Made by a program: the position numbers and the translations under genes. 64,000 bases of DNA from NCBI RefSeq assembly GCF_013407185.1, contig NZ_CP026995.1:871578-935577 (forward strand), written 5' to 3'. Source of the DNA: Nitrosopumilus ureiphilus (GTDB lineage: Archaea > Thermoproteota > Nitrososphaeria > Nitrososphaerales > Nitrosopumilaceae). The notes under the pieces are model-generated. The model saw only the letters and a program-made list of their open reading frames with translations. It had not been told where the DNA came from and did no database searches. Shown piece by piece: positions 970-58,353 of the stretch. Position 1 is the first letter of the stretch; every line of letters starts with the position of its first letter.

Positions 970-1015
970 AAAGATTAGAACAATTTATGAACATCCTATA
1001 ATTCTTAGTCATATT
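970..1015 (+). promoter_or_regulatory. Shared promoter/leader block (copy 1)
   Basis: This block ends directly at the ATG of the next gene. It contains TTAGAACAATTTATGAACAT and then TAGTCATATT before the start codon. Nearly the same block precedes the minus-strand genes starting at 11280 and 7494. The TTTATGAA core fits an archaeal TATA box placed about 28 bases before the start codon, so the transcript is probably leaderless. Confidence 0.6.
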
Positions 1016-2095
1016 ATGAAGTATTTTGTAATTTTTCTAGTTTTGATTGGGATGGGAAGTATGGCATTTGCAGAAGAAATCCCAGTAAAAATTCAAACTC
1101 CAAACAATACGGACTTGATAATTACGGGTACTGTGGGGGATTTTCCTCCTCCAAGGGCCCCGCTTGTTACAATAATTATCGAAGACAAACTTGGCAAACC
1201 AATTTTAATTGAATCGACATATCCTGATGGAGTAGGCCATTTTTCATTAGAGATTAAAAGGCTTGGTACGTTATGGGAGGACGTAACAGAATTTTTTGTA
1301 AAGGCAAGAGTTGCAAAAACCACATCGTCTGATGCTGTGATAAAAGAACCAGAATATGGTGCGAAAAATCTAGGCAAAATTATCTGGAAGGAGGCATCAT
1401 ACCGCGGGCTTGAAGATGATGTTGGAACAATTCAGGTAATTGATCCTGACGTTAATCAGTTTAACAATGCAATAGACTTTCTCAGAGTAAAGGCATGGTC
1501 TGACAGTTCACCGCACAAAACTACGATTATACTCACAGAGACAGGAATGAACACCAACATCTTTGAAGGAGATGTAATCTTTTCTAACAAATACCATTTT
1601 TCAAGAGGTGTGCTTTTTGTGAGTAATGGGGATACTGCAACTGCGATGTATGCAGATACCACGCTCCCCGAATATATGGAATCTGATATCTACAAGTTAA
1701 ACGCCACTGCATTAATTGTTGGAAAGCGAGGGCCTCCAATGGAGAGAGCGCCAGCATCAAACTTTATGGTGCTAGATGTAGAAAAAATACCAATAGATGA
1801 TAATTTAATTTCAGTAGATCAACAAATTAGACTAGTGTCTGATCTGGAAAATCATATGGATAGAGTTCAACCGTTTGCATATTTGGTTCAAATACAAAAC
1901 AGTCAAAATCAGGTAGAGTCTTTATCTTGGCTTACTGGAAATCTTACCTCTTTTCAGAAAATAAATTTAGGAACCACTTGGATTCCATTAAAAGAAGGCA
2001 AATACTATGCAACTGTATTTGTTTGGGAATCCGTTAACAATCCCACTGCTTTATCCCCTCCGATGAGTATGGAGTTGTTTGTCAAGGGATTGTGA
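1016..2095 (+). CDS. Secreted S-layer-like repeat protein with Ig-like C-terminal domain
   Basis: The ATG at 1016 begins a clear signal peptide (MKYFVIFLVL..GSMAFA); a longer TTG-started frame from 956 would bury it. Residues about 35-110 look like a beta domain. The middle has VIDPDVN..., WSD and LTETGMNTNIFEGDV, the same surface-layer-like repeat found five times in the protein at 21732. The last 80 residues (FAYLVQIQN...VESLSWLTG...YYATVFVWE) match the C-terminal domain of the protein at 52781-53551. It is predicted to be extracellular and cell-wall associated. The gene ends 6 bases before the next gene, so the two are probably co-transcribed. The precise role is unknown. Confidence 0.8.
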   Translation: MKYFVIFLVLIGMGSMAFAEEIPVKIQTPNNTDLIITGTVGDFPPPRAPLVTIIIEDKLGKPILIESTYPDGVGHFSLEIKRLGTLWEDVTEFFVKARVAKTTSSDAVIKEPEYGAKNLGKIIWKEASYRGLEDDVGTIQVIDPDVNQFNNAIDFLRVKAWSDSSPHKTTIILTETGMNTNIFEGDVIFSNKYHFSRGVLFVSNGDTATAMYADTTLPEYMESDIYKLNATALIVGKRGPPMERAPASNFMVLDVEKIPIDDNLISVDQQIRLVSDLENHMDRVQPFAYLVQIQNSQNQVESLSWLTGNLTSFQKINLGTTWIPLKEGKYYATVFVWESVNNPTALSPPMSMELFVKGL

Positions 2096-2101
2096 AATAA
2101 A

Positions 2102-4909
2102 ATGAAAAGTAGACTATTGATAATTATTGGAATTGCAGGTATATTTTTAGTTCCTATAAATTCTGCTCAAGGCTTGCCTAGTTTTTTGGACTGCAAATAT
2201 GATTCTAGTTTTGTGATTTCTACAAACAAGTTAGAATTTACCCAAGGAGAAACATTTGTACTCAATGTCAAAACAATACAAAATGATACTTCATTTGAAG
2301 TGCTTGTAATAAATCCAAAAGGGCAGGAAGTTTTTGCAGATGTTGTTGACGGTACAGACAAATTTGGTTACACTCAGGCAAGATTTCACATACCAGATGA
2401 TGCACTACAAGGAACTTGGAGTATTTTTGTAACTGCAAAACCATCTCAACAACAACAAGTTATTTTCATCGGAGTTGATGAAACCCCGCAATCAATAATT
2501 TCAATAAAATCTTCATATGTAAATTATGAATACAAAGTAGACGATGCATCGTTTTTGGTTGCAGGAGAACCAAACACTGGTATTCAGATAAATGTGCTAG
2601 ATCATAATAATGAAAAAACAAATATCTACATAATTACGCTGACGCCAGAAGGTAAATGCAACTTTACTCTTGATCTGGATGGATACAAGCCGGGTGTGTA
2701 TGCCGTTGAGGTTACTGACCATAATGATAAGGCAATTGCCACATTTACTGTGGGATTACAACCATCAACAGGTCAAATTGATGTCAGTACTGACTCTGCC
2801 AAATACTCTTCAGGAGAAACAGTTTTGATATCAGTAGAATCAGGACCAATGATAAAATTACAAATATCCATAATGGGACCTCTTGGCAATGTCATCGAGA
2901 AAATTCTTGCAACTACTGACCAAAACGGTAGATTATCTGAATCATTCACAATCCCACAAAATGCTACAGAAGGCACTTGGAGCATTAAATCCGCATCCGG
3001 CTCAAATTTTGATATAACCGAATTTACAGTGATTGCACAAATTGATTCCCTTTCCAAAATTCGGATGCCACCTTCAATATCTGACCCGATGTATCTATGG
3101 AATGACAAGGATCTGATTCTGGATGGAAACATATTCTCAATCCGTGGTGTTTCAGAAAATGTGACTGCATTTGACATTAAAATTAACAAATTCTTCAAAG
3201 GAGAATCAGCATCTGATATGATTACCGTGTTTGATTATGATTCAAAATTTCTTTTTCCTGTGGGACAAGATGCATTAATCTATCTGAAAAAAATTGAAAA
3301 TTCTTATGAAATATCTCCATACACAGTAGAGACTACAATTAATTGCAGTGCAAGAGACAGAATTCCATTATCCACGTTACCTGGAGAACCCATAGGTCGT
3401 GGAGGTCCTACTTTGGAATTTGTTCCAGATCATCCATGCATCCCATCATATTACACTGGAATACTCTCTAACAATGATTCATCAACTGACACTGTTCCCT
3501 ATAGAACTCCTGGAGGAAGTTTTTCTCCTGACAAAACTGTATATCCGACACCTTGGGAAGACAGACCTCCATTAAAACAATTCAAAGATGGAATTGATTC
3601 TAAAGTGATCCACTGTAATGATGATTTGGTGTTGGTTCAAAAGTACAACGGTTTTCCTGCATGTGTAAGAGAACAAACAATTCCAAAATTAATTGAGAGA
3701 GGGTGGAACAATAAAAATAGTGAAAACACAGTTGGCTGGAAAAAATACATCATGATTGAATCAAGTAGGATAGACAAATCCAGAATAACAGACAGGTTGA
3801 CAATTCATCATTTAGGAGAAATCCAACATGGCTCAATTTTGAACAAGTTGTTTGTAGGGGTCGATGGTTGTAAGAATAAAACTGATTTGTGTGCATTGCC
3901 TAGAGGGATATCCCTAGATAAAACAAATCCATTAAATATCCCTGCACATGATTCTGACACTTTTTCTGTAACTCTAAACGAAAAACAGGCAAACTATCTT
4001 TTTTCACAGCTAGAGTGGATAATTGAAGAAAATTGGATTTACACTGCTATACAGTGGAAAGAGAATTACTACCTTCTTGTATTTTCAACATTTGATCAAA
4101 CCAGAACTCCAGACGTGAAAATGAAACTAGTTGACATTCCTCTACAACCTGTTAGTTTGGAGAGTGGAGGAAATCTGAACTATACAATTCAGGTTGATGC
4201 ATGGGCAACGTATGGAACCTCTGCCCAGATAGATCTTAGTGCAGTTCAGAGTGCAAAAGATTCTGGCATGGATGTATGGATTGAACCTGAAACTCTAATA
4301 ATTCCTGAACGAAGTAATGCCACTGCAACCTTGTTCATACAAGCCAGTGACGATGCAAATGCTGGCATCTATGATGTCCGTGTCATCGGATACGCAAATG
4401 GAAATAATGCGGGTCTTCATTGCAGTAATACAATATGTCCTACAATAAACATAGGCAATTCCAATTGGTCTATTCGTACGTTTGGCTCGGGTACCAACAT
4501 GGCCATCGGTGGAATTTCACAACCGGACAACACTTGGATGGAGATTGAATTGAACAAAAATGAATTCTTTGAGGATGACATTGTAGAGATCAAGACATAT
4601 CTGGTGAACAACAGTACTGATACACTGACATTTATTCCAGATCAAATATTGATCAAAGTGATAAAAGCTCAGCCTGTAGGATACTATGAAAATCTTTACG
4701 GGATTAATGCAAGATATGAATCAGACGAACCTTTCATATTGGAGCCTAATTCAAAAACACTTTTGGTGAGACCATTTTATTGGAATCAGATGACTTTTCA
4801 AAATTTTGATGATGAACAAAGACTAGAGCCAAGACAACACAAAATGATAGCTAAATTTGTAGGGGAAAATCATGCATGGAATGATGATGTTATGTTTGAA
4901 ATAAAATAG
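2102..4909 (+). CDS. Large secreted multidomain protein: Ig-like, NTR-like and PLKQ module
   Basis: This 935-residue protein starts with a signal peptide (MKSRLLIIIG..INSAQG). Residues about 30-320 hold three Ig/MG2-like beta domains, each with a pattern like YTQGETF..I..P.G and GTWSIFV or GTWSIKS. Residues about 330-430 fit a netrin/TIMP-like domain (LDGNIFSI, FFKGES, ...YEISPYTVETTINC). The PLKQ...PACV...KLIERGW module is at about residues 490-535. A C-terminal half of beta-rich sequence follows, with no membrane anchor. It probably forms a tandem transcription unit with the gene before it. Adhesion, surface structure or inhibitor function are all possible; the domain calls are by eye. Confidence 0.8.
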   Translation: MKSRLLIIIGIAGIFLVPINSAQGLPSFLDCKYDSSFVISTNKLEFTQGETFVLNVKTIQNDTSFEVLVINPKGQEVFADVVDGTDKFGYTQARFHIPDDALQGTWSIFVTAKPSQQQQVIFIGVDETPQSIISIKSSYVNYEYKVDDASFLVAGEPNTGIQINVLDHNNEKTNIYIITLTPEGKCNFTLDLDGYKPGVYAVEVTDHNDKAIATFTVGLQPSTGQIDVSTDSAKYSSGETVLISVESGPMIKLQISIMGPLGNVIEKILATTDQNGRLSESFTIPQNATEGTWSIKSASGSNFDITEFTVIAQIDSLSKIRMPPSISDPMYLWNDKDLILDGNIFSIRGVSENVTAFDIKINKFFKGESASDMITVFDYDSKFLFPVGQDALIYLKKIENSYEISPYTVETTINCSARDRIPLSTLPGEPIGRGGPTLEFVPDHPCIPSYYTGILSNNDSSTDTVPYRTPGGSFSPDKTVYPTPWEDRPPLKQFKDGIDSKVIHCNDDLVLVQKYNGFPACVREQTIPKLIERGWNNKNSENTVGWKKYIMIESSRIDKSRITDRLTIHHLGEIQHGSILNKLFVGVDGCKNKTDLCALPRGISLDKTNPLNIPAHDSDTFSVTLNEKQANYLFSQLEWIIEENWIYTAIQWKENYYLLVFSTFDQTRTPDVKMKLVDIPLQPVSLESGGNLNYTIQVDAWATYGTSAQIDLSAVQSAKDSGMDVWIEPETLIIPERSNATATLFIQASDDANAGIYDVRVIGYANGNNAGLHCSNTICPTINIGNSNWSIRTFGSGTNMAIGGISQPDNTWMEIELNKNEFFEDDIVEIKTYLVNNSTDTLTFIPDQILIKVIKAQPVGYYENLYGINARYESDEPFILEPNSKTLLVRPFYWNQMTFQNFDDEQRLEPRQHKMIAKFVGENHAWNDDVMFEIK

Positions 4910-5004
4910 AGTTCAAACTTATTGGGATTTGAACTAAGTTTAAGATCAAAAAAGAATAAAAATCCAAAACCCCTATTATTTTACATGAAAAGGTATCAGT
5001 CAGT

Positions 5005-5418
5005 TTGAAAAATATATTGTCAATTATTTTCCTAATTTTGATTATCCTTGTAAGTTCTTTTTTAATTTATGATGCGCTTGGAAATAACGGTAATGTTGTA
5101 TGGTCAAAAGCATATTGGATAATCACATTTGCTCAAATACCTGACAGTCAGTGGGCAGAAAAATACGACTTGTATCCAATTGTTATTGCATACAAGCAAA
5201 AATATCCTGACACCATCTTAACACAAGATTTGGGATATGTTGGAAAATATTTAGATTACACAGTTTCAAATTTAACTAATTCTCCACGTTTACACATATG
5301 GATAATCAATGATGACCGAGATCATTTTTACCTTAAATGTGAAGACTCTTTCAAATCATCACCAATTACTGTGCCAATGCAGGTCAGTGACTTTAACTGC
5401 AATGACCAAACCCCCTAG
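5005..5418 (+). CDS. Hypothetical signal-anchored protein
   Basis: The frame begins with TTG at 5005; no ATG is available in frame, and AGGT lies upstream at a suitable distance. Residues 1-25 form a strongly hydrophobic segment (SIIFLILIILVSSFLIYDAL), either an uncleaved anchor or a signal peptide. The remaining 110 residues are hydrophilic and rich in aromatic residues, with two cysteines near the C-terminus. No family is recognised. It follows the large secreted protein by 95 bases in the same direction and may be read through from it. Confidence 0.6.
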   Translation: MKNILSIIFLILIILVSSFLIYDALGNNGNVVWSKAYWIITFAQIPDSQWAEKYDLYPIVIAYKQKYPDTILTQDLGYVGKYLDYTVSNLTNSPRLHIWIINDDRDHFYLKCEDSFKSSPITVPMQVSDFNCNDQTP

Positions 5419-5514
5419 GATTCCCACATCATAGTCAAACTTGTATGGATTTGAACTTATTTTATTAAAAATGACTGTATCAATCTATTACTTTAACACC
5501 ATTTGAACAAATCT

Positions 5515-6276
5515 TTAATCAAACGTAATTGGTCCATGAAACTCTATTGTTATTGGCACATCAAATGGAATCATGTTTTTAAAGTATTCATAATAGTATG
5601 ATTGTGCGTCATCATGTTTTTCTAATTCACTTTCAAGAATTCCTATAGATACTCCAGTTCCTGGCGCACCTCCGCTTCCAACACTAACTAATTCAGGAAG
5701 AATATCAAAATTGCTAGTTATTATTGATTGAGCCATTTTGGCTTTGATATGTACTGGCAGTGAGTTTGTCTCCTTTGATAAAACTACAATATCGCCCATC
5801 TCCACGTCATTTGCTGCATCAATTCTATAGAAATAGATATCAGTATTATTGAACTGGATAGATTCTTGCAATTGAGGACCAAATTCAGCTGTTTTCCATG
5901 AGTGTTGATCTTTGTTTATTACATTTTTGGCATACTCGGCTCCATATTGTTCTTTTGTAAAATCCCGAACTGATACAGTAAAAGCACCTTTGTTAACCCA
6001 AGTAACAGTGTCATTTTCTTCTAAATTTATTACAAGAGACCAAGGTGCAATAGTCATCCTAGTTCCACTATTGTCAGTTACATCATAAATGATGATGGTA
6101 TTTTTGTCTATAAGTGTTGGATCTAAATGACATTCAGCTCCTCTTTGAATGTATTTTTTCCCACATTGTAGTTTTGGTATTTCAAAAGGTCTACTTTCAT
6201 CAAAAGAATATAGTGAAAAAAAGATGTAAGAACTAAATATCACAATTGCAATTATTATCAATAGTCTAATCTTCAT
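5515..6276 (-). CDS. Secreted cupredoxin-like protein lacking copper ligands
   Basis: An N-terminal hydrophobic segment (MKIRLLIIIAIVIFSSYIFF) is followed by a cupredoxin-like fold at about residues 58-166. LEENDTVTWVNKG matches the plastocyanin-type strand that usually leads to the first copper His, but here the sequence runs on as AFTVSV without His. The C-terminal loop (YFYRIDAANDVEMGDIVVL) has the usual Y-x-Y start and the M-G-x-I end, but neither the Cys nor the second His. The domain is therefore probably metal-free and structural or binding. The gene starts 3 bases after the stop of the gene at 7494-6280, so the two are co-transcribed. About 85 C-terminal residues are of unknown type. 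Confidence 0.75.
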   Translation of the reverse strand: MKIRLLIIIAIVIFSSYIFFSLYSFDESRPFEIPKLQCGKKYIQRGAECHLDPTLIDKNTIIIYDVTDNSGTRMTIAPWSLVINLEENDTVTWVNKGAFTVSVRDFTKEQYGAEYAKNVINKDQHSWKTAEFGPQLQESIQFNNTDIYFYRIDAANDVEMGDIVVLSKETNSLPVHIKAKMAQSIITSNFDILPELVSVGSGGAPGTGVSIGILESELEKHDDAQSYYYEYFKNMIPFDVPITIEFHGPITFD

Positions 6277-6279
6277 TTT

Positions 6280-7494
6280 CTATTTCTCCACTACATGAAA
6301 CTCTTTACTTGCTGTTGTTGGAAAATACTTGTTTGGTTGTTCAAATATTACAGTAACAGTGTATGTTCCAGGATTTTTTATTGTAATATTTCCAAAGAGT
6401 TTATGACGATCAGTAGAATTGATTTCAAAATCATGCATTATAAGATAAGGGTCGCAAAGAGGCTCTTGTCCCCATCCTTGTAGTTTTCCATCCTCACCAG
6501 GATAACTTACATTAATTCCTGCACACTCATGACCATAGCCGGATATTACAAAAGAAAAAGAATATTCTTCACCCAACTTATATTCATCTTTGAGTCCGAC
6601 TATCTCAACGGTATAACGTTCTCGATATTTTTCTTCTATTGGATTTGGTTTTGGTAAAAGCAATGCTTTGGGTTTTTCTAATTTTTCAAAATCAATAATG
6701 TGTTTGGTGTTAAGATTGAAAAATCCACTTTGATCACTAATGCAGTCAGGAATTGAATCATAGATTCGTCCTGAGATTTCATATGAAACTGGTAAATCAA
6801 AAATCAAGAGATTTTCATTAAAGCTTCCATCTGCATGCTCATCAAGCCATCGTCCAAATTCCACACAATCTTCATTGTTTAGAATTGTCTCAATGTCATA
6901 CAGTCTTTCTTTTGGGGTCAGAATTGCCCATCCGCGCTCAAGTAATTTTTCTTTGGTTTCAGGATTTACGCATACAGGAGAGCCATCATATCTTGCAACT
7001 AGAGTTAACGATTCCTTGCATTGTATTTCATCGATTGGAATTCCTGACTTGAACTGTTTTAGTGGAGAGATGATATAATCATAAGCAACTTGCCTTATTT
7101 GCTCAATTTCTGCGTGTTCCAAAAGAGAGGTTGGTGTGCATGTTTGAGGTCTTAAATTTTGTCCGTCATCATATGCAAAAACAACATATTCTAAATTCTT
7201 TGTGAAATTATAACCCCAGAGCCACTCTGAAGATATTATTGAAATGGTTTCTTGTGAGATTCCTTTGAAGTTCTCTATTATTGAAAATTGTGTTATTGCA
7301 TCATTTTTACCATTAGATGAGCTACGTTCACTAGGAACATATTCTTTTGATAGTACTTGGCCTGCAAAAACAACATCTGATTCTGCAAAAGATTGAATCG
7401 TATTTACTCCTCCACAAGACAATCCATAAACAGAATTACTTGCAGTAAAAGAAACAAGAGAAATCAACACCAGAAAAATTATAAAATACTTCAT
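6280..7494 (-). CDS. Secreted NTR/TIMP-like protein with PLKQ module and Ig-like domain
   Basis: The signal peptide is MKYFIIFLVL..SNSVYG, followed by LSCGG, so mature residues begin near a cysteine as in netrin/TIMP-like domains. The NTR-like part covers about residues 25-130 (SDVVFAGQVL, FSIIENFKG, YVVFAYDDG, QTCTPTS). The PLKQ...PVCV...KLLERGW module follows, encoded at about 6928-7065. A beta-sandwich domain of about 115 residues ends the protein (KLGEEYSFSFVISG ... GTYTVTVIFE), with no membrane anchor. It is the first gene of a two-gene unit with the cupredoxin-like gene and is driven by the shared promoter block. Confidence 0.8.
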   Translation of the reverse strand: MKYFIIFLVLISLVSFTASNSVYGLSCGGVNTIQSFAESDVVFAGQVLSKEYVPSERSSSNGKNDAITQFSIIENFKGISQETISIISSEWLWGYNFTKNLEYVVFAYDDGQNLRPQTCTPTSLLEHAEIEQIRQVAYDYIISPLKQFKSGIPIDEIQCKESLTLVARYDGSPVCVNPETKEKLLERGWAILTPKERLYDIETILNNEDCVEFGRWLDEHADGSFNENLLIFDLPVSYEISGRIYDSIPDCISDQSGFFNLNTKHIIDFEKLEKPKALLLPKPNPIEEKYRERYTVEIVGLKDEYKLGEEYSFSFVISGYGHECAGINVSYPGEDGKLQGWGQEPLCDPYLIMHDFEINSTDRHKLFGNITIKNPGTYTVTVIFEQPNKYFPTTASKEFHVVEK

Positions 7495-7541
7495 AATATG
7501 ACTAACAAAATAATTGGAAGCTCATAAAGTGTTCTAATGAT
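7495..7541 (-). promoter_or_regulatory. Shared promoter/leader block (copy 2)
   Basis: On the minus strand this reads TTAGAACACTTTATGAGC, then TTAGTCATATT directly before the ATG at 7494. It matches the blocks before 1016 and 11280. The TATA-like TTTATGAG is about 28 bases upstream of the start codon, as expected for a leaderless transcript. Confidence 0.6.
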
Positions 7542-7634
7542 TGGTTCAAATCCATACAGGTCCACACTTATGAATTAAATCATCAAAAATTAAACTACAA
7601 AGGGGTTTATCAACAATCATTTTCTTTTTTTATT

Positions 7635-7946
7635 ATGAAATTAAAATTATTTTATATCTTGTTAATTGCATTACCACTGTATGGAATCATCATATCAGTG
7701 GCATTCAGCATTCATAATTCTATGGTACATGAATCAGGCCTCTTTTTGTTTAATTTTATAGTTGAAAGCGTGATTGTGCCACCAATGTCGATATCGTTTA
7801 GTGGTATGTTGGGTTTTTTGTCAAAAATATCATACATCCTCCCAGACATCATAATCAAAATAATTGCCAATTTGTTATTCTGGATATCCGTTGTGATAAT
7901 CGGAAAACTGTATTTTAGATCAAAACCCCGTATCAAACCCCAATAG
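7635..7946 (+). CDS. Small membrane protein
   Basis: This 103-residue protein starts at an ATG. It has an N-terminal hydrophobic segment (FYILLIALPLYGIIISVAF), a middle segment (about 40-70) and a C-terminal segment (IIIKIIANLLFWISVVIIGKLYF) followed by a basic tail (RSKPRIKPQ). Two or three membrane passes are likely. No family is recognised. A short stretch, VPPMSISFSGMLGFL, resembles VPMSILFWGVIGLI in the small minus-strand ORF at 11444-11632, so the two may be distant relatives. Confidence 0.55.
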   Translation: MKLKLFYILLIALPLYGIIISVAFSIHNSMVHESGLFLFNFIVESVIVPPMSISFSGMLGFLSKISYILPDIIIKIIANLLFWISVVIIGKLYFRSKPRIKPQ

Positions 7947-7996
7947 ATTTGGTTGTGTGGATTTTTTCGGGTTTGAACCCTAGTTTTCATTTTCTC

Positions 7997-9436
7997 TTAT
8001 TTTGTAGGGTCCATTACTTTTCCAATGAACAGAATATCATTTGTCATGTTATCCTGGATTAGAAATATGAAAGGATGGTCTGCTTTGAACAGTCGCCCTC
8101 CTGACTCATCAGTGTTAATTGCAGTGGCAGTTGCAGCCTCTGTTCCAATCTCATTTACTTCTACAAATGCCTTGTGAACTGCCTTTGATACAAACAACCC
8201 CTTGTAGCCAGTTATGCCACTAAGATCGGCCGGACCGAACACCGAAGTTATCCCCATGTCAGGCAGTGTTTCTTTCAAATCATATTCCGTATCAAGCGTA
8301 AATTTTGGGATATGTATGGTTCCTCTAAAATCTCTGAATTGACTCTTCCAGAGTTCTAAATTATCCAATGTGATTGAATCCTCAACTGACGGCATATCTT
8401 CTGCATCATGTGGCAAAATAATTAGCATTGAAAAAGAGTTTCCCTTGTATGGCATCTGAAGCATCTGCATCTGTTCTGTAGATGTATGGTTAAGGTTCAT
8501 TTTATGCTCATAAGTCATCATCGGAGCTGTCACAGTTTTTGTGGAGTCTACTGCAAAGTCACCATCATAGGTATTTTCCAGATCAAATGGATATTCCCAT
8601 GCCCCCTTGAAGTAGATTGTATTTGTTATTACCATTTTTGTCAAAGATGTGGTGGAGCCAGGTACAAGAAGTTCCTCTATTCTGTTTTGTGTTTTTGACT
8701 TTACCCAATCATTTATCTCAAGTCGTCCCTCATCTGTTGCAAAGTTTACAGTGTCAATCGAACTGTCATAGTATGTCTTTGCAGTGTCTGTATATTTCGG
8801 CAAAGGTGTAAAACCGTTTGCAAGCCACAATGCATTTGACATTTGTACTGTGTTCTCATCATTGTTTTTTTGATTCATCATGTTGATAAAAGACATGAAT
8901 CCAACTTGCCTTTCATTGTCGTCTGTCGGAAATCCGAATACATCTTGTATCTCTGCTGCAGTGTCGCCTTTTGCACCTTCATACAGTATTGAAAATGCAG
9001 TAGAGATGCTAGGAGATGAGAAAAATACATTTTCGTTTTTCTCTTTTGATATTTGCCTGTAAAAATCAAGTGTGAATTGGTTGTTTGACTCTGTTATTTT
9101 TTTGGCAAGTGCAGAGTCAGAAGGAATAGTTTTGATTGGTTTTATTGTTGTGTTTAGTTTTACAGGATTGTCGGCCCATCCTCTTTCAATCAGTTTTTCT
9201 TTTGTTTGTAAAGTAACACAGGCAGGAGAACCGTCGTGTTTTTGGATTAAGACAAGATTAACTTTGCATTGTATTTCAAATATTGGAATTCCCAAGTTGG
9301 ATTGCTTTAATGGAGGATCATCAGTATCCTTCTCTAACAGATTGTACTGAGAATTGTTTTCTGCAAAGGATTCCTGAATGCCAACAGTGCCAAAAACAAT
9401 CAACAAGATAACTCCAAATACGTATATCATGATCAT
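7997..9436 (-). CDS. Secreted serpin with N-terminal PLKQ module
   Basis: A signal peptide (about residues 1-25) is followed by the PLKQ...PACV...KLIERGW module (about 42-88) and a full-length serpin domain (about 100-479). Serpin features are clear: NVFFSSPSISTAFSILYEGA, TNTIYFKGAW, and the distal HPFIFLIQD...ILFIGKV. The reactive-loop hinge GTEAATATAI (about 431-440) keeps small residues, which is the pattern of inhibitory serpins. The scissile bond lies near NTDESGG; the P1 residue cannot be fixed by eye, but the loop is acidic and small rather than basic. It likely inhibits serine or cysteine proteases outside the cell. ATGs at 9436 and 9430 are both possible starts. I know of no other serpin carrying this N-terminal module. 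Confidence 0.9.
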   Translation of the reverse strand: MIMIYVFGVILLIVFGTVGIQESFAENNSQYNLLEKDTDDPPLKQSNLGIPIFEIQCKVNLVLIQKHDGSPACVTLQTKEKLIERGWADNPVKLNTTIKPIKTIPSDSALAKKITESNNQFTLDFYRQISKEKNENVFFSSPSISTAFSILYEGAKGDTAAEIQDVFGFPTDDNERQVGFMSFINMMNQKNNDENTVQMSNALWLANGFTPLPKYTDTAKTYYDSSIDTVNFATDEGRLEINDWVKSKTQNRIEELLVPGSTTSLTKMVITNTIYFKGAWEYPFDLENTYDGDFAVDSTKTVTAPMMTYEHKMNLNHTSTEQMQMLQMPYKGNSFSMLIILPHDAEDMPSVEDSITLDNLELWKSQFRDFRGTIHIPKFTLDTEYDLKETLPDMGITSVFGPADLSGITGYKGLFVSKAVHKAFVEVNEIGTEAATATAINTDESGGRLFKADHPFIFLIQDNMTNDILFIGKVMDPTK

Positions 9437-9452
9437 GGTCTTTTAGGACGCC

Positions 9453-9466
9453 TCATAAAGTGTTCT
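9453..9466 (-). promoter_or_regulatory. TATA-like element of the serpin gene
   Basis: The minus strand reads AGAACACTTTATGA, identical to the cores upstream of the genes at 7494 and 11280. Its distance fits transcription starting close to the second ATG (9430) of the serpin gene. The rest of the leader block is not conserved here. Confidence 0.5.
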
Positions 9467-9521
9467 ACTGAGATTTAGCTCAAATTCCAAGTTTGTTTTA
9501 AACAAAATATGATTAATGGTT

Positions 9522-10172
9522 CTATTGATTTTCACAATACTCAAAATCATCAAAATATCTAAACCCGTTTAATATCTCCAGTGTTTCAAGATCTACGGTT
9601 GCAGAATCATAATACTCGCATTTGTTGTGCTGTGGCATCTTGACTCCATCAATAAAGAACTGTACACTTGCATGCCAGTCATCCTCTGAAGACATTATCA
9701 AGAAATTATCCAGTTCTGGTTCAGAGGGCCAATCTTCTGCCTCAGGTAACTGTAAAACCTTGTTTACAACCTCTTGTTCTTGTTCTTCTGATACTAGGTT
9801 TGATGGAATTTGTGGAGCCCACACATATGGGGCAATGCATCCATAGGTACCCTTGCATAACTCCAACTTGTAACTCGGGGACGGCAGTTCAAAAATAATC
9901 CCATTCTTGTTATCAGGATGCAAACAAGTCATAAAAACACCCGTATCATTTTCTGATAGATTATTGTTTGGACAAAAATAATCTGCAAACAATTCCAAGT
10001 CTGTTTTGTCATAATCAACAGGAATGAAAAGAGCAGATCCTGGATGCTTTTTTTCGTCTGTCATCTCCCTGTCAAAATTGTAAGATGCTGCTCCAAGTCC
10101 AAAAATAACTGCTCCGGCTACAGACATGATTGCAATTGGAACAATAACTGTAATCAAAAATTTGTTTTTCAT
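9522..10172 (-). CDS. Hypothetical exported protein
   Basis: The 216-residue protein begins MKNKFLITVIVPIAIMSVAG, a signal peptide or anchor. The mature part has six cysteines, some in pairs (YFCPNN...FMTCLHP; LELCKGTYGC). The last 50 residues (DDWHASVQFFIDG...DSATVDLETLEILNG) faintly resemble a PepSY-like strand pattern, which is a weak resemblance only. It is the last gene of a three-gene unit; its ATG overlaps the stop of the preceding gene by 4 bases (ATGA). Confidence 0.7.
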   Translation of the reverse strand: MKNKFLITVIVPIAIMSVAGAVIFGLGAASYNFDREMTDEKKHPGSALFIPVDYDKTDLELFADYFCPNNNLSENDTGVFMTCLHPDNKNGIIFELPSPSYKLELCKGTYGCIAPYVWAPQIPSNLVSEEQEQEVVNKVLQLPEAEDWPSEPELDNFLIMSSEDDWHASVQFFIDGVKMPQHNKCEYYDSATVDLETLEILNGFRYFDDFEYCENQ

Positions 10173-10663
10173 TTTCTTTTTCTCCTAATTACAAAAACAA
10201 TTCCAATGACAATACCTGCAATCACAGTCAAAAGAAATGTAAAATTAATTGTCACACCATCTCCCAATGGAAATTGATTATTTTTCAAGTTGTGTTCCAT
10301 ATCCGAAAAGAATTTTTCTTGTATCACTTGATCTATGAATTTACCCTCATAATTTGGAATTTCACCTTGATAGAAATAGTAAGTGCGGACATTGCTATGG
10401 GCCATTGTAGGCTCACCGGACCACTCACCAAGGGTTCCATCTTCAATAGCAGTAAACATTTCTTGTTTTTTAGTCTCCATCCATTCAGCACCTTTATAGT
10501 CATAGTATTCTGCCCATCCTTCTTTGTAAAAGTCAATAGAAGCAGGTCCAGGATAGTATGGAGCACTTGGCCAATCAGGATTAGCATTTGGCGGTGCAAA
10601 AACATTAGATGTAGGAAATAGTATTGTAAATGCAAATAACACAAGCAAAAGTCTACTTTTCAT
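10169..10663 (-). CDS. Hypothetical secreted protein with C-terminal membrane anchor
   Basis: The signal peptide is MKSRLLLVLFAFTILFPTSNVFA. The mature region is rich in Trp, Tyr and Pro (PDWPSAPYYPGPASIDFYKEG). It ends with one membrane helix (FLLTVIAGIVIGIVFVI) and the basic tail RRKRK. This type I arrangement places the domain outside the cell. The start overlaps the previous stop and the stop overlaps the next start, both as ATGA, so translation is probably coupled. No family is recognised. Confidence 0.75.
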   Translation of the reverse strand: MKSRLLLVLFAFTILFPTSNVFAPPNANPDWPSAPYYPGPASIDFYKEGWAEYYDYKGAEWMETKKQEMFTAIEDGTLGEWSGEPTMAHSNVRTYYFYQGEIPNYEGKFIDQVIQEKFFSDMEHNLKNNQFPLGDGVTINFTFLLTVIAGIVIGIVFVIRRKRK

Positions 10664-11280
10664 TTTCTTTTTCTCGATTTAATAAACAAAATTGTTCCTG
10701 TGACAATCCCGCCAATAATTCCAGCAATTATTAAACTCAGAATAATATTACGCATTATTTGTGTATTTTCAATTTCTATTTTTCTTAATTCTGATTCTTC
10801 TTCATAAATTTTTTCAAGTTTGTTTTTTTCATCATCAGACAAACTTTCATAAATATTGCCAGGAGTAAGTAGACCGTAATCCCCTATTCCTTCTTTTACA
10901 GAATGCAAGCCCTGTACAATACTTGGAAATGAATGATAAACAGGAACACATAATGGGATATTGTATCCTGTTTTTGTTTTTTCAGCAAATACTATGTATG
11001 TTTTTTCTGCTCTAAATTTGAATCCATAAAGTCCCTCAGTTGAATGAATTGTCAAAGGATTTGAAATGTCACCTTTGAATGTATTTTTGATTTCAAATGT
11101 AACTAAAGTGGATTCTGAACCCGGAATGTATTCTTTTAAGATTACTTTTCCTTCAAACACTGCATCGTTATGGGTATATTGATACTGAGTGGTTAGAGGA
11201 TCACAAAGTAATCCAAATGCAGGAGTAAAAAATCCTGAAACAATAATACCAATAAAAATCAGAATAACAAAATATTTCAT
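10660..11280 (-). CDS. Membrane-tethered NTR/TIMP-like protein
   Basis: A signal peptide (MKYFVILIFIG..TPAFG) is followed by LLCDPL, placing a cysteine at the start of the netrin-like domain. Core motifs are HNDAVFEGKVI, VTFEIKNTFKGD, TYIVFAEKT and PLCVPV. A charged helical stretch (about 130-170) leads to a C-terminal membrane helix (ILSLIIAGIIGGIVTGTILF) and the tail KSRKRK. It is a minimal membrane-bound version of the NTR-like proteins in this region. It heads the unit with the genes at 10169 and 9522 and uses the shared promoter block. Confidence 0.78.
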   Translation of the reverse strand: MKYFVILIFIGIIVSGFFTPAFGLLCDPLTTQYQYTHNDAVFEGKVILKEYIPGSESTLVTFEIKNTFKGDISNPLTIHSTEGLYGFKFRAEKTYIVFAEKTKTGYNIPLCVPVYHSFPSIVQGLHSVKEGIGDYGLLTPGNIYESLSDDEKNKLEKIYEEESELRKIEIENTQIMRNIILSLIIAGIIGGIVTGTILFIKSRKRK

Positions 11281-11328
11281 AATATGACTAGATGAATAAT
11301 GGGATGTTCATAAAGTGTTCTAATCTTT
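11281..11328 (-). promoter_or_regulatory. Shared promoter/leader block (copy 3)
   Basis: On the minus strand it contains TTAGAACACTTTATGAACAT and ends TAGTCATATT at the ATG at 11280. Within the first 22 bases it differs from the copy before 1016 at one position. The TATA-like TTTATGAA lies about 28 bases from the start codon. Confidence 0.6.
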
Positions 11329-11443
11329 AGTAGCAAATCCATACAGGTTTGAACAAAACATCTGCTCAAGACCAAAAATTTCAATAAATCTATGTTTAGG
11401 TTTTGGATGTATTTTTTCTTTTTCCATTTTTTGTAATGCGATT

Positions 11444-11632
11444 TTATTTGTTTTTAATCAAATTATTAATAAACTGAATTATCAAACCAATAACTCCCCA
11501 AAACAAAATAGACATTGGAACATATACATGAGGAATTTGAAAAATCCACGGAATGGTATAATGTACCTGAGACGAACTTGGATCCCCTAGATAATTGATA
11601 GAACTATTGTACACTTCATCTCCCAACAACAT
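11444..11632 (-). CDS. Possible small membrane protein
   Basis: This 62-codon frame starts at an ATG preceded by AGGA. It has one hydrophobic helix near the C-terminus (VPMSILFWGVIGLIIQFI) and a short basic end. It might be a remnant of a larger gene. The only support is the helix, a plausible ribosome-binding site and the weak likeness to the protein at 7635-7946. Confidence 0.35.
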   Translation of the reverse strand: MLLGDEVYNSSINYLGDPSSSQVHYTIPWIFQIPHVYVPMSILFWGVIGLIIQFINNLIKNK

Positions 11633-11699
11633 TCCTGGAAGGTTAAGTGTCAGATGAGGACACCCTCAGAAGGCCATAACAAAGATAAAACAAAACCTA

Positions 11700-11888
11700 A
11701 TGCTATGCCGTAAATTAGAAAACCAAAAAAAAAATTCTACCTGTAATTTTATGTATATTTTTCAAGTTATTCTATTCTGTACTCAAATACTATCGTCATG
11801 TAAAGCATATGATTCATGTTCTAATGACTCTAGTATCAAACCTGCATGGATTCCTTGTGTAGAAGAACTTATGAATATCCCACATTGA
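11700..11888 (+). CDS. Possible short secreted peptide
   Basis: The frame ends 6 bases before the next gene and could be its leader cistron. From an internal ATG it reads MYIFQVILFCTQILSSCKA, like a signal peptide, then about 27 residues with two cysteines. An opposite-strand frame overlaps it. Evidence is weak. Confidence 0.3.
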   Translation: MLCRKLENQKKNSTCNFMYIFQVILFCTQILSSCKAYDSCSNDSSIKPAWIPCVEELMNIPH

Positions 11889-47344: not shown

Positions 47345-48913
47345 CTATGATAACGGAGTAATCATTACTAGTCCTGCATCATTTGGAACGAATCTTATCA
47401 TGGCAATATCTTCTCCCAAGACATTATTTTTTGCACTCAAATCCCTTGGAATCTGACCATTTACAGTTACTACCATTTTTGATGTGACAAATTCACTAGG
47501 AATGTACATTACAACATATTGTGGTCTGTCAATAGAAAATGAGATCATATTCACTTTAGGGATGAATTGAAAGTCAGAAATTACTGCAGGACTTTGTATA
47601 TCGATAATTTTTGAAGTTCCTTCAATGAATTGGGGTTGAAATTTTTCTCGTATATCTTCAGTAAGTGGTTTGATTTCATATTTTTCTGAATCTTGAATTT
47701 CTAATCGTAATCCTTCAAGGCAGTAATTTTGACTTTGTTGATCTTCAATTAGTTTACATGATTTTGAACCCTCCTCAAGATCATGATTGGTGAAAAATGC
47801 CAAAGTAGTTCCAATAGACATACTACATTCAACAAAATCAACATTATCTAGTTTAGATTCATTACAAAGATTGGAAACAGCATCAGATGTTATTCCTTGT
47901 CTGGTTAGAACGTTGTCCGTGTATTGCATCATTACACCTTTCATACAGAGCCTGTTTTGGTAAAATGACATGTCATGGCACTTTTCCAATGAAGAGCCCA
48001 AATCTTCACCAAAATAATGTACCAATCCATGCCCCAATCCGTGAACACAGTCTTGATAGTTTGAAGATCCTATCAATCCATTACAAATTACTTTATAATC
48101 CGATGGGAGTGATTTGTTTTTTTCTTGCTCATCATGAAAATAAGCAGATAACACACCATGAAAATAACCTCCTCTGCACATGGTTCCATCCATTCCAATT
48201 AGATTTTCAGCGACATTGGGTTTTTTATTAAATGCAACATGTCCTACTTCGTGAGAAACAAAGTGACAGTCATCTATTGCACCCAGTTTAGATAATGCAA
48301 TGGATAACTCTAAAGCATCAGAGTTATTTTCCTCATTTTCAGCCAGAACCCCAAAGAAATTAGAATAACATAGTAGACGTGATGAGCCATCATCCATTTT
48401 TGCACAATCTTTTATGTTTTGAAGATATTTTATTGCCAAATCCTCTGAAGATAAAGTAGGATCATTATCTACTATATCCAATATCCCATCATTGTCATCA
48501 TCATCATCTTTTGTCGAGCCTATCCCATCAAAATCAAAATCTGCCCACTCGGTAGGATCAGTGTCAAAGAAATCAAGAGAGTCCAATATCCCATCATTGT
48601 CATCATCATCATCTTTGTTATCCCCTATAGAGTCAAAATCGATGTCACTCCATTCAGAAGATTCATTGTCAAAGGCATCTACTTCATCAGAAAAACCATC
48701 ATTGTCATCATCAGAATCACATTCATCACCTAAAGAATCTGAATCAAAATCAGTCTGGTCTATGTTTGGATTATCAATACAGTTATCAAAAAAATCTGTA
48801 ACGCCATCATTATCTTTATCTGCAAAAGTTACCACATTGGACCAGGATAGTATAGAAATAGACATTGAAATTGCTAATGCAACCAATAGAAATTTGATCT
48901 TTTTGTTAATCAT
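47345..48913 (-). CDS. Secreted TSP3-repeat protein with unrecognised His/Cys-rich domain
   Basis: The ATG at 48913 starts MINKKIKFLLVALAISMS, a signal peptide. Residues about 30-150 are thrombospondin type 3 calcium repeats ([25 protein letters not shown]). The next 270 residues carry CHFVSHEVGHVAF, MCRGGYFHGVLSAYF, DCVHGLGHGLVHY and GVMMQYTDN, with many further Cys. The final 100 residues form a beta domain (SPAVISDFQFIP... KMVVTVNGQIPRD). The conserved His pattern suggests a metal site. A paralogue lies at 56875. It is probably extracellular; function unknown. Confidence 0.8.
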   Translation of the reverse strand: MINKKIKFLLVALAISMSISILSWSNVVTFADKDNDGVTDFFDNCIDNPNIDQTDFDSDSLGDECDSDDDNDGFSDEVDAFDNESSEWSDIDFDSIGDNKDDDDDNDGILDSLDFFDTDPTEWADFDFDGIGSTKDDDDDNDGILDIVDNDPTLSSEDLAIKYLQNIKDCAKMDDGSSRLLCYSNFFGVLAENEENNSDALELSIALSKLGAIDDCHFVSHEVGHVAFNKKPNVAENLIGMDGTMCRGGYFHGVLSAYFHDEQEKNKSLPSDYKVICNGLIGSSNYQDCVHGLGHGLVHYFGEDLGSSLEKCHDMSFYQNRLCMKGVMMQYTDNVLTRQGITSDAVSNLCNESKLDNVDFVECSMSIGTTLAFFTNHDLEEGSKSCKLIEDQQSQNYCLEGLRLEIQDSEKYEIKPLTEDIREKFQPQFIEGTSKIIDIQSPAVISDFQFIPKVNMISFSIDRPQYVVMYIPSEFVTSKMVVTVNGQIPRDLSAKNNVLGEDIAMIRFVPNDAGLVMITPLS

Positions 48914-49116
48914 ACCGTGCGATTTCCGTAAGATCAATTACACAATTCAGCATTTTAGGATATCTACTCAATTATAATCATCTTAAGTGCTACAATTTTT
49001 TGATTTGTGTTTGGGATTATCTAGATGGTTGAAATTCTAAATTTCTTGATTATGAACTATTAAGTATGGATTAACTTTGTTAACTTAGGTTTAACTTTTA
49101 ACATAATTGTTGTTCT

Positions 49117-56874: not shown

Positions 56875-58353
56875 TTGATAAATAAATCTGGTATAATTGC
56901 AATCTCTGCTATTTTGATAATATCTATTTCACTTGTTTTGATCAATTCTAAAGAGATCTCTATTACAAGACTACCTAATTTTGATGCTGATCAGGATAGC
57001 GTTGTTGACAATTTTGATAATTGCCCTAAAATAAAAAACAGCGATCAGACTGACTTTGACAAAGACACACTAGGTAATCCGTGTGATCTTGATGATGATA
57101 ATGATGGTGTTGTTGATAAATTAGATGCATTTGATACTGATCCTACCGAGTGGGCAGACTTTGACTTTGATGGAACCGGTTCTATACTTGACAAAGATGA
57201 TGATAATGATGGGATTTTAGATGATAAAGATTCAACGCCTAGTCCCATATCTGAAAAACTAATACAACAATATATGACCGAAATCGAGAGTTGTGTTTTA
57301 GCAGATGATGCTAATTCTTTTTTATGTTATGGGAATTTCTTTGATTCTTTGGTAAAAAATGAATCAAATAATGAAAATGCTTTGAAGTTAGCATTAGCAT
57401 TATCTAAAATCAATGCTATAGGCGGCTGCCATTTTATTTCTCATGTGGTAGGACATGCAGTTTTTGATGAAACTTTGAATGTTTCTCAAAACTTTGACTT
57501 TGATGCTTCTTTATGTCGAGGGGGTTATTATCATGGGATTATGGGGGCATTTTTTCACAATCTGAAAGAAAACAATAAACCCATTTCTGATAACTATAAA
57601 GTAATCTGCGATGATCTTATGGGAACCTCAAATTATAGTGACTGCATACACGGATTGGGACATGGATTAATAAATTACAATCCCGCTAATTTAGAATCAG
57701 CTATTGAATATTGTCATCAAATGTCATATTTTCAATACTATTCATGTACAGCAGGAGTGATGATGCAATATACTGATAATCAATTAACCGAGTTTGGGGC
57801 GACTAAAGAAAATCTTTCTGACATGTGTTCTGAATCAAAATTAAATAAATTTACTTTTAATATGTGCAGTAAGAATATTGGAATAAGTTTGGCATTTCAT
57901 AATAATCATGATCTGAATAAATCTTCTAAATTTTGTCAAATGATAGAAAATGAAAAAGGCAGTGAAATTTGTCTTGAACAATTAAAGAAAGAAATTTTAA
58001 AAGACGAACTAGGTACGCAAACACAATTTACAGAAAATGAAAAAACAAAGTTTCAACCCCAATGGATAAAACAAGGGGATGGAAAATGGATAGTTGATTT
58101 TAATTCCAAGGCTGTAATTTCTGATTTTGAATATGTTGAAGGAATCAAAATGATGCAATTTTCTTTTGATGTGCCTGAAATGATCAAAATTTATGCTTGG
58201 AATGAACTATTACCCGAAAAATTAATTGTCACAATTAATGGAGAGCATGAAAGAAATGTTGTGATAAAACGTGATACAGTTGAACCAATTACATCCATCA
58301 TGATTTCCCCTGATGTGTCTGGAACAGTTTTGATCGTACCCTTACCCGAGTAA
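56875..58353 (+). CDS. Secreted TSP3-repeat protein, paralogue of 47345
   Basis: TTG start at 56875 giving [20 protein letters not shown], a signal peptide or anchor. TSP3 calcium repeats cover about 38-122 ([29 protein letters not shown]). The following domain keeps [41 protein letters not shown] and GVMMQYTDN of its paralogue at the same spacing. A C-terminal beta domain ends the protein. The identical placement of His and Cys across diverged sequences suggests selection on a metal or active site. It has fewer TSP3 repeats than the first paralogue. Confidence 0.8.

Follow-up and report, generated by a model that had tools for sequence, protein, structure and literature searches.

How does one short piece of DNA, running from a promoter through the start codon into the codons of a signal peptide, come to stand before several genes on both strands? 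The question is raised by a window of 64,000 nucleotides, that is, the whole stretch of DNA analysed here (positions 871578-935577 of G000, a single-contig genome of 2.17 Mb from a marine-type archaeon). The original prediction described such a block at three places and interpreted it as a ready-made cassette for expression and secretion, by whose acquisition new surface genes arise. The observation is confirmed, and the phenomenon goes beyond what was reported. Each of the three blocks is exact where it was placed, with one copy on the plus and two on the minus strand. The interpretation is partly supported. The elements concerned are the following.

975-990, plus strand: core promoter element TTAGAACAATTTATGA (putative BRE and TATA-like box), exact
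7522-7537, minus strand: core promoter element, second copy, exact
11308-11323, minus strand: core promoter element, third copy, exact
1006-1015, plus strand: start-proximal block TAGTCATATT, likely transcription start region, exact
7495-7504, minus strand: TAGTCATATT block, second copy, exact
11281-11290, minus strand: TAGTCATATT block, third copy, exact
1016-1072, plus strand: signal-peptide codons MKYFVIFLVLIGMGSMAFA, cleavage site placed by eye
9453-9468, minus strand: core-only copy before the serpin gene, one mismatch, without start block

The sequence TTAGAACANTTTATGA matches exactly at 975-990 (+), 7522-7537 (-) and 11308-11323 (-), and TAGTCATATTATGAARTATTTT is exact at 1006-1027 (+), 7483-7504 (-) and 11269-11290 (-). 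When up to three mismatches are allowed in TAGTCATATTATGAARTATTTT, shuffling of the window gives an expectation of 0.02 matches, and chance is thus excluded. At the same tolerance the core is hardly above chance in the window, where 17 matches are found against 9.3 expected and 2 of 100 shuffles reach as many; the signal sits in the exact forms. As a small correction to the description, the third gene begins with ATGAAATATTTT (ATGAAA) instead of ATGAAG. The serpin had been said to share the core only, which is what its upstream region contains. The genes behind these elements are listed below.

1016-2095, plus strand: P0001, predicted exported protein whose residues 117-353 correspond to the C-terminal domain of 8c8k
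2102-4909, plus strand: second gene of the P0001 unit, predicted exported protein with MG2 domain and WING-49
6280-7494, minus strand: P0002, predicted exported protein with WING-49; N-terminal domain common to P0003
7997-9436, minus strand: P0004, predicted exported serpin with WING-49 (Pfam PF00079, NF058652)
10660-11280, minus strand: P0003, homologue of the N-terminal part of P0002; predicted to be exported, with a hydrophobic stretch close to the C-terminus

The three blocks and the serpin core look like the heads of four transcription units: P0001 with 2102-4909; P0002 with 5515-6276; the serpin alone; and P0003 with 10169-10663 and 9522-10172. In the putative three-gene unit (9522-11280) the genes overlap by ATGA stop/start sequences and the first two proteins end in Arg/Lys-rich stretches, suggesting translational coupling and C-terminal membrane anchors. 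The matching part of P0001 corresponds to residues 1498-1730 of the 1734 residues of the solved S-layer protein (E 7.7e-56). In P0001 this C-terminal S-layer domain is detached, and it may cap the S-layer lattice or dock into it. The serpin is recognised by PF00079 with E 3.6e-115 (385.6 bits, gathering score 27), and WING-49 (NF058652, curated cut-off 22) is found in P0002 with 78.9 bits, in the serpin with 71.7 and in the product of 2102-4909 with 71.3, with no match in P0001 or P0003; no literature on this domain was found in open-licence PubMed Central. Besides, two further proteins of the window (47345-48937 and 56875-58353) contain thrombospondin type 3 repeats (PF02412).

It had also been claimed that the mature proteins differ. 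This holds for P0001, whose mature part has no detectable similarity to P0002 or P0003, and fails for P0002 and P0003, whose homology extends beyond the signal peptide (31% over 121 aa, E 8e-17). The domain common to these two has no Pfam match and no relative in the PDB, and AlphaFold models it with low confidence (mean pLDDT 55.6). Of 51 proteins encoded behind blocks of G000 or its relatives, a set that includes a few doubtful or duplicate entries, 36 share a stretch of 50 aa, recognised by an HMM, which coincides with the WING-49 domain of P0002. After masking of this domain the mature parts of the 51 proteins fall into 17 BLAST components. The S-layer-like C-terminal domain appears in several contexts: directly after the signal peptide (1034319- of G000 and G105:C51), after another domain (P0001 and G105:C9) and after a P0002-type domain (G002 and G085). 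P0001 and the 1034319- protein are 60% identical over 247 aa.

A search of the whole genome, which the original prediction had proposed, gives 12 copies of the start block within three mismatches against none for the reversed control. Related to this, AGAACANTTTATGA has 18 exact copies genome-wide, AGAACACTTTATGA has 17 copies and none in the reversed control, by which chance is excluded for the exact core too, and a 20-mer upstream of the block (TTCAAACCTGTATGGATTTG) has 28 copies and none in the control. Alignment of 13 full copies from G000 reveals a common order: often the 20-mer, then ATTAGAACACTTTATGA, then about 27 nt ending in TAGTCATATT, and finally ATGAAATATTTTGTAATT. Of these copies at least 11 are intact, the three window genes being among them, and two are orphans in which the frame stops within about 13 codons and no gene follows. 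A simple frameshift was rejected for the orphan at 521253- because no long open frame continues there. Each intact copy carries its own core promoter at fixed spacing: among 56 entries from G000 and relatives, 41 have 26 or 27 nt between the box and the start codon. The core is also found with a different start, before the serpin, 870657+ and 1502785+ of G000. Two elements of the window belong to this upstream context.

11334-11353 (G000:882911-882930), minus strand: exact upstream 20-mer TTCAAACCTGTATGGATTTG, candidate regulator site
946-967 (G000:872523-872544), plus strand: palindromic element TTCAAACCTATTGGGATTTGAA in a degenerate copy with 3 mismatches, ahead of the first core

The palindrome, which is related to the 20-mer, has 13 dispersed copies, one of them just past the stop codon of 2102-4909. 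The 20-mer also precedes another box, of the TCATCAAtCGTTAT type, at G000:871401, 1024982, 845716 and 1532904, which may represent a second class of promoters controlled by the same regulator. In three regions of relatives the intergenic DNA upstream of block genes is dense in short repeats such as CCGAATTGATAA and CCGAAAAGATA.

L217, about 11280-11700 (G021:C1:1421280-1421700): repeat-packed intergenic region
L216, about 10600-11030 (G083): repeat-packed intergenic region
L218, 1-120 (G105): repeat-packed intergenic region

The association of the block with export was analysed in 298 ORFs from about 312 kb of G000 (the window and 16 further stretches), 17 of which have the core, with up to three mismatches, at the right distance. 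According to a simple hydropathy rule applied to the N-terminus, 16 of the 17 genes behind the core are export-like, compared with 104 of the 281 others (Fisher p 2.8e-6). The sole exception is G000:1122457-1123128 (-) in L091, whose N-terminus we take, by eye, to resemble the N-domain of CDC48-type ATPases. A clear upstream region is present in 214 ORFs, namely the 17 motif genes, which were selected by the motif, and 197 others. The sequence AGAAnnCTTTATGA lies upstream of 11 of these motif-selected genes and of 0/197 others, and TTTATGA upstream of 15/17 and 6/197, respectively; weak TTTATG variants are enriched before other genes too. A generic promoter before many unrelated genes, the reading that the original prediction had set against its own, is rejected by the absence of the full core before the 197 other genes. 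Because of this result and of the difference in export-like N-termini, the block is a promoter class dedicated to secreted proteins, and it marks a gene set.

The distribution of the block was followed with a sequence-only profile built from the 13 G000 copies and searched with the stricter filters of Infernal, by which weak matches are missed. At E <=1e-4, 29 of 95 genomes of the genus match and 66 are without matches; G000 has 22 matches, G105 (a genome with 8% contamination) 19, G083 six and G064 five, with fewer elsewhere. At E <=0.01, 15 of 61 genomes match, all of the same genus, and under these stricter filters no match is found in 24 genomes of the same order outside the genus. The 20-mer, within two mismatches, is present in 12 of 95 genomes, with 18 copies in G000 and 1-4 in each of the others. 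A strict pattern, too strict to map the group, gave a single match across the named genomes (L215), before a very short reading frame and a DnaJ-like gene. Regarding a viral origin, no exact match of the block was found in viral_contigs, exact matching being a strict test.

Is this similarity the product of recent copying or of long-standing constraint? Non-homologous blocks were compared within and between genomes, leaving out G000 and dropping 4 of the 56 entries. The core-to-start identity is 0.609 in the same genome and 0.627 between genomes; for the core together with the coding part the same-genome minus between-genome difference is -0.006, a value reached by 1235 of 2000 permutations of the genome labels. 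No homogenisation within genomes was found by this permutation outside G000, and recent within-genome copying as a general rule is there rejected. Homologous genes have blocks only slightly more alike than non-homologous ones, and orthologues often keep the block. Since the similarity outside G000 is independent of the genome and orthologues often keep it, most of it looks old and constrained. The similarity also fades early: in pairwise local alignments of 1032 non-homologous pairs (8 of 56 entries dropped) its median coding end is nt 34 and four pairs go beyond nt 105.

The conservation extends to synonymous sites in the coding part. The isoleucine of codon 6 is encoded by ATT in 36 of 37 copies, against 59 of 109 isoleucine codons in the N-termini of other signal-peptide candidates; the share of the relatives (27/27) is biased because their copies were picked by similarity to the G000 profile, which favours conserved positions and includes codon 6, whereas the G000 copies (9/10) were found without it. 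Mean block identity is 0.72 in G000 and 0.63 in G105, a hint of greater uniformity in G000 that comes partly from the differing ways of finding copies. The same difference in method applies to the core AGAACA, present in 10/13 G000 copies and 9/43 copies of relatives (p 4e-4). Comparisons with orthologues had a mixed outcome: the P0001 block has an identity of 0.667 to its G105:C9 orthologue and a mean of 0.764 to the other G000 blocks, and the P0002 block has 0.838 (G002) and 0.855 (G085) to orthologues and 0.741 to the other G000 blocks.

The strongest of the 1032 non-homologous pairs consists of G083:1743541- and G021:1421202-, both from single-contig genomes. Over about 540 bp, from approximately -487 to +56, the G083 gene shares 82% identity with the 5' region of the G021 gene, which encodes a protein of 426 aa; from about +52 the G083 gene is 73-86% identical in DNA to the interior of the G105:C73 gene. 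At the protein level, G083 matches residues 304-689 of the 690-aa G105:C73 protein with 70% identity, starting at G083 residue 18, and the N-terminus of the C73 protein is a different one of its own. One similarity gives way to the other within about 5 nt, at the predicted cleavage site AFA|D, assigned by eye; the joint lies at G083:C1:1743480-1743500. G083 also contains a separate relative of the 426-aa gene (87-91%; L221 1694-2970, G083:1323193-1324469), which may be decaying because it is split over two frames, and whose block is similar too (77% from -144 to +54). Judging from this alignment, one of these genes arose by in-frame joining at the signal-peptide boundary, in either direction, and acquisition of the cassette does take place in the genus. 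This mosaic assembly reaches into the window as well, since the product of the window gene 2102-4909 is 56% identical to the first 313 residues of the C73 protein.

A second joint is indicated once in G000. The back halves of the signal-peptide sequences of 1034319- and 1501076+ have an identity of 0.85, the top of 55 pairs (mean of the 52 non-homologous pairs 0.506), and 1034319- has 0.606 to its G105:C2 orthologue. The first 60 mature nt of the two genes are at 0.52, which is the level of non-homologous pairs (mean 0.514). This pattern points to signal-peptide DNA that is common to both genes and a mature part that is not. The claim of cassette acquisition is consequently supported by one block before many unrelated mature groups and by the G083 joint, but not for the window genes as recent copies: for these three, common descent or long constraint matches acquisition in likelihood.

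The best explanation, to which we assign a probability of roughly 0.7, is that the block is a 5' module of a secretome gene set, kept in part of the genus, which can be joined as a unit to other mature sequences. The module consists of the core promoter ATTAGAAnnCTTTATGA, which in most cases lies 26-27 nt upstream of the start codon, of TAGTCATATT and of signal-peptide codons of the MKYFVIFLVLIG type, and it precedes exported proteins of many mature types. In archaea the TATA box lies about 26 nt before the transcript start; with the spacing observed here, the TATA-like box is predicted to set this start at or a few bases before the ATG and to give a near-leaderless mRNA, by which promoter, transcript start and signal-peptide codons would become one short unit. 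Recombination at the signal-peptide boundary can link the unit to another mature sequence, as one relative shows and as one case in G000 indicates. The 20-bp element before the core in G000 is perhaps a regulator site, and the block genes of this genome may be co-regulated because their core is more uniform and the element is often upstream. Start sites and co-regulation are both inferred from these sequence features.

The nearest competing explanation is the expansion of one gene family, in which an exported ancestor was duplicated and its descendants kept the 5' end, with mature parts that diverged or acquired domains. The homology of P0002 and P0003, that of P0001 and the 1034319- protein, the blocks kept by orthologues and the 50-aa domain of 36/51 proteins all agree with it; however, the S-layer C-terminal domain, the N-terminal domain of P0002, the 426-aa family and the C-terminal part of an MG2 protein clearly differ in origin although they follow the same block, and the G083 chimera joins two known sequences, so we regard family expansion as unlikely to account for the whole set. 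Slightly less probable still is constraint without any copying, where selection alone keeps a promoter class and a favoured start of the signal peptide. Fixed spacing and a block similarity that is equal within and between genomes and hardly dependent on mature homology would be expected under it, but it does not explain the long 5' DNA common to the G083 chimera and the G021 gene, the back half of the signal peptide that 1034319- and 1501076+ have in common, or the two orphan blocks.

Two further possibilities appear very improbable. A MITE-like mobile element with an outward promoter would be in line with copies dispersed on both strands, with the orphans and with the palindromic element nearby, whereas the fixed phase and spacing to the start codon, and a similarity that runs into the reading frame and then fades, argue against it. 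Equally remote is phase variation, in which inverted copies recombine and switch surface genes as in Mycoplasma Vpma/Vsp: inverted copies do lie within 11 kb of each other, and the 5' conservation resembles that of vpma genes as far as the available text of the source describes them, but every intact copy has its own core promoter, and a Pfam scan of 28 window ORFs (part of the ORFs of the window) detected no recombinase.

The module has counterparts in several known systems. Archaeal BRE/TATA core promoters of leaderless transcripts have an AT-rich box that precedes the start codon at a fixed distance, as is the case here, and a leaderless mRNA would be expected; on the other hand, the conserved stretch described here is much longer, extends into the codons of the signal peptide and goes together with exported proteins. 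The closest known kind is that of the Mycoplasma Vpma/Vsp (and Vsa) surface lipoproteins, in which, according to the available part of PMC2268961, 5' UTRs and signal-peptide codons are conserved and mature parts vary, an arrangement also seen here. Those families are phase-variable, with one active promoter, silent promoterless copies and a site-specific recombinase, whereas the block genes each have their own core, their mature parts are less related and the scanned ORFs contain no such enzyme. Polymorphic toxin systems combine a constant trafficking part with varied following domains via recombination (PMC3482391, as far as its available text goes); they exchange C-terminal toxin cassettes, while here a promoter and a signal peptide make up the constant part and toxins were not detected. 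Secreted serpins have been reported in sponge-associated Thaumarchaeota (PMC6790972, PMC7848895), similar to the predicted exported serpin in this genome of ammonia-oxidiser type, and the available portions of both articles do not mention a promoter/signal-peptide block.

The finding bears on the open question of gene birth, that is, how a new exported protein gains expression and address at once. Genome comparison can put this question to the test, given a constant unit of promoter and signal peptide whose joint at the cleavage site is resolved. No paper on leaderless transcripts, start sites or promoter motifs in Nitrosopumilus or ammonia-oxidising archaea was found in open-licence PubMed Central, and the block defines a candidate secretome regulon in archaea with few described promoters. 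A bolder version, which we put forward tentatively and consider somewhat doubtful, is that a mobile 'first exon', made up of promoter, transcript start and signal peptide, repeatedly receives new mature sequences by recombination at the cleavage site, G000 having an amplified set with a 20-bp control site. If this were true, the secretome would be combinatorial and under one regulator, and it would include free S-layer-like domains and protease inhibitors.
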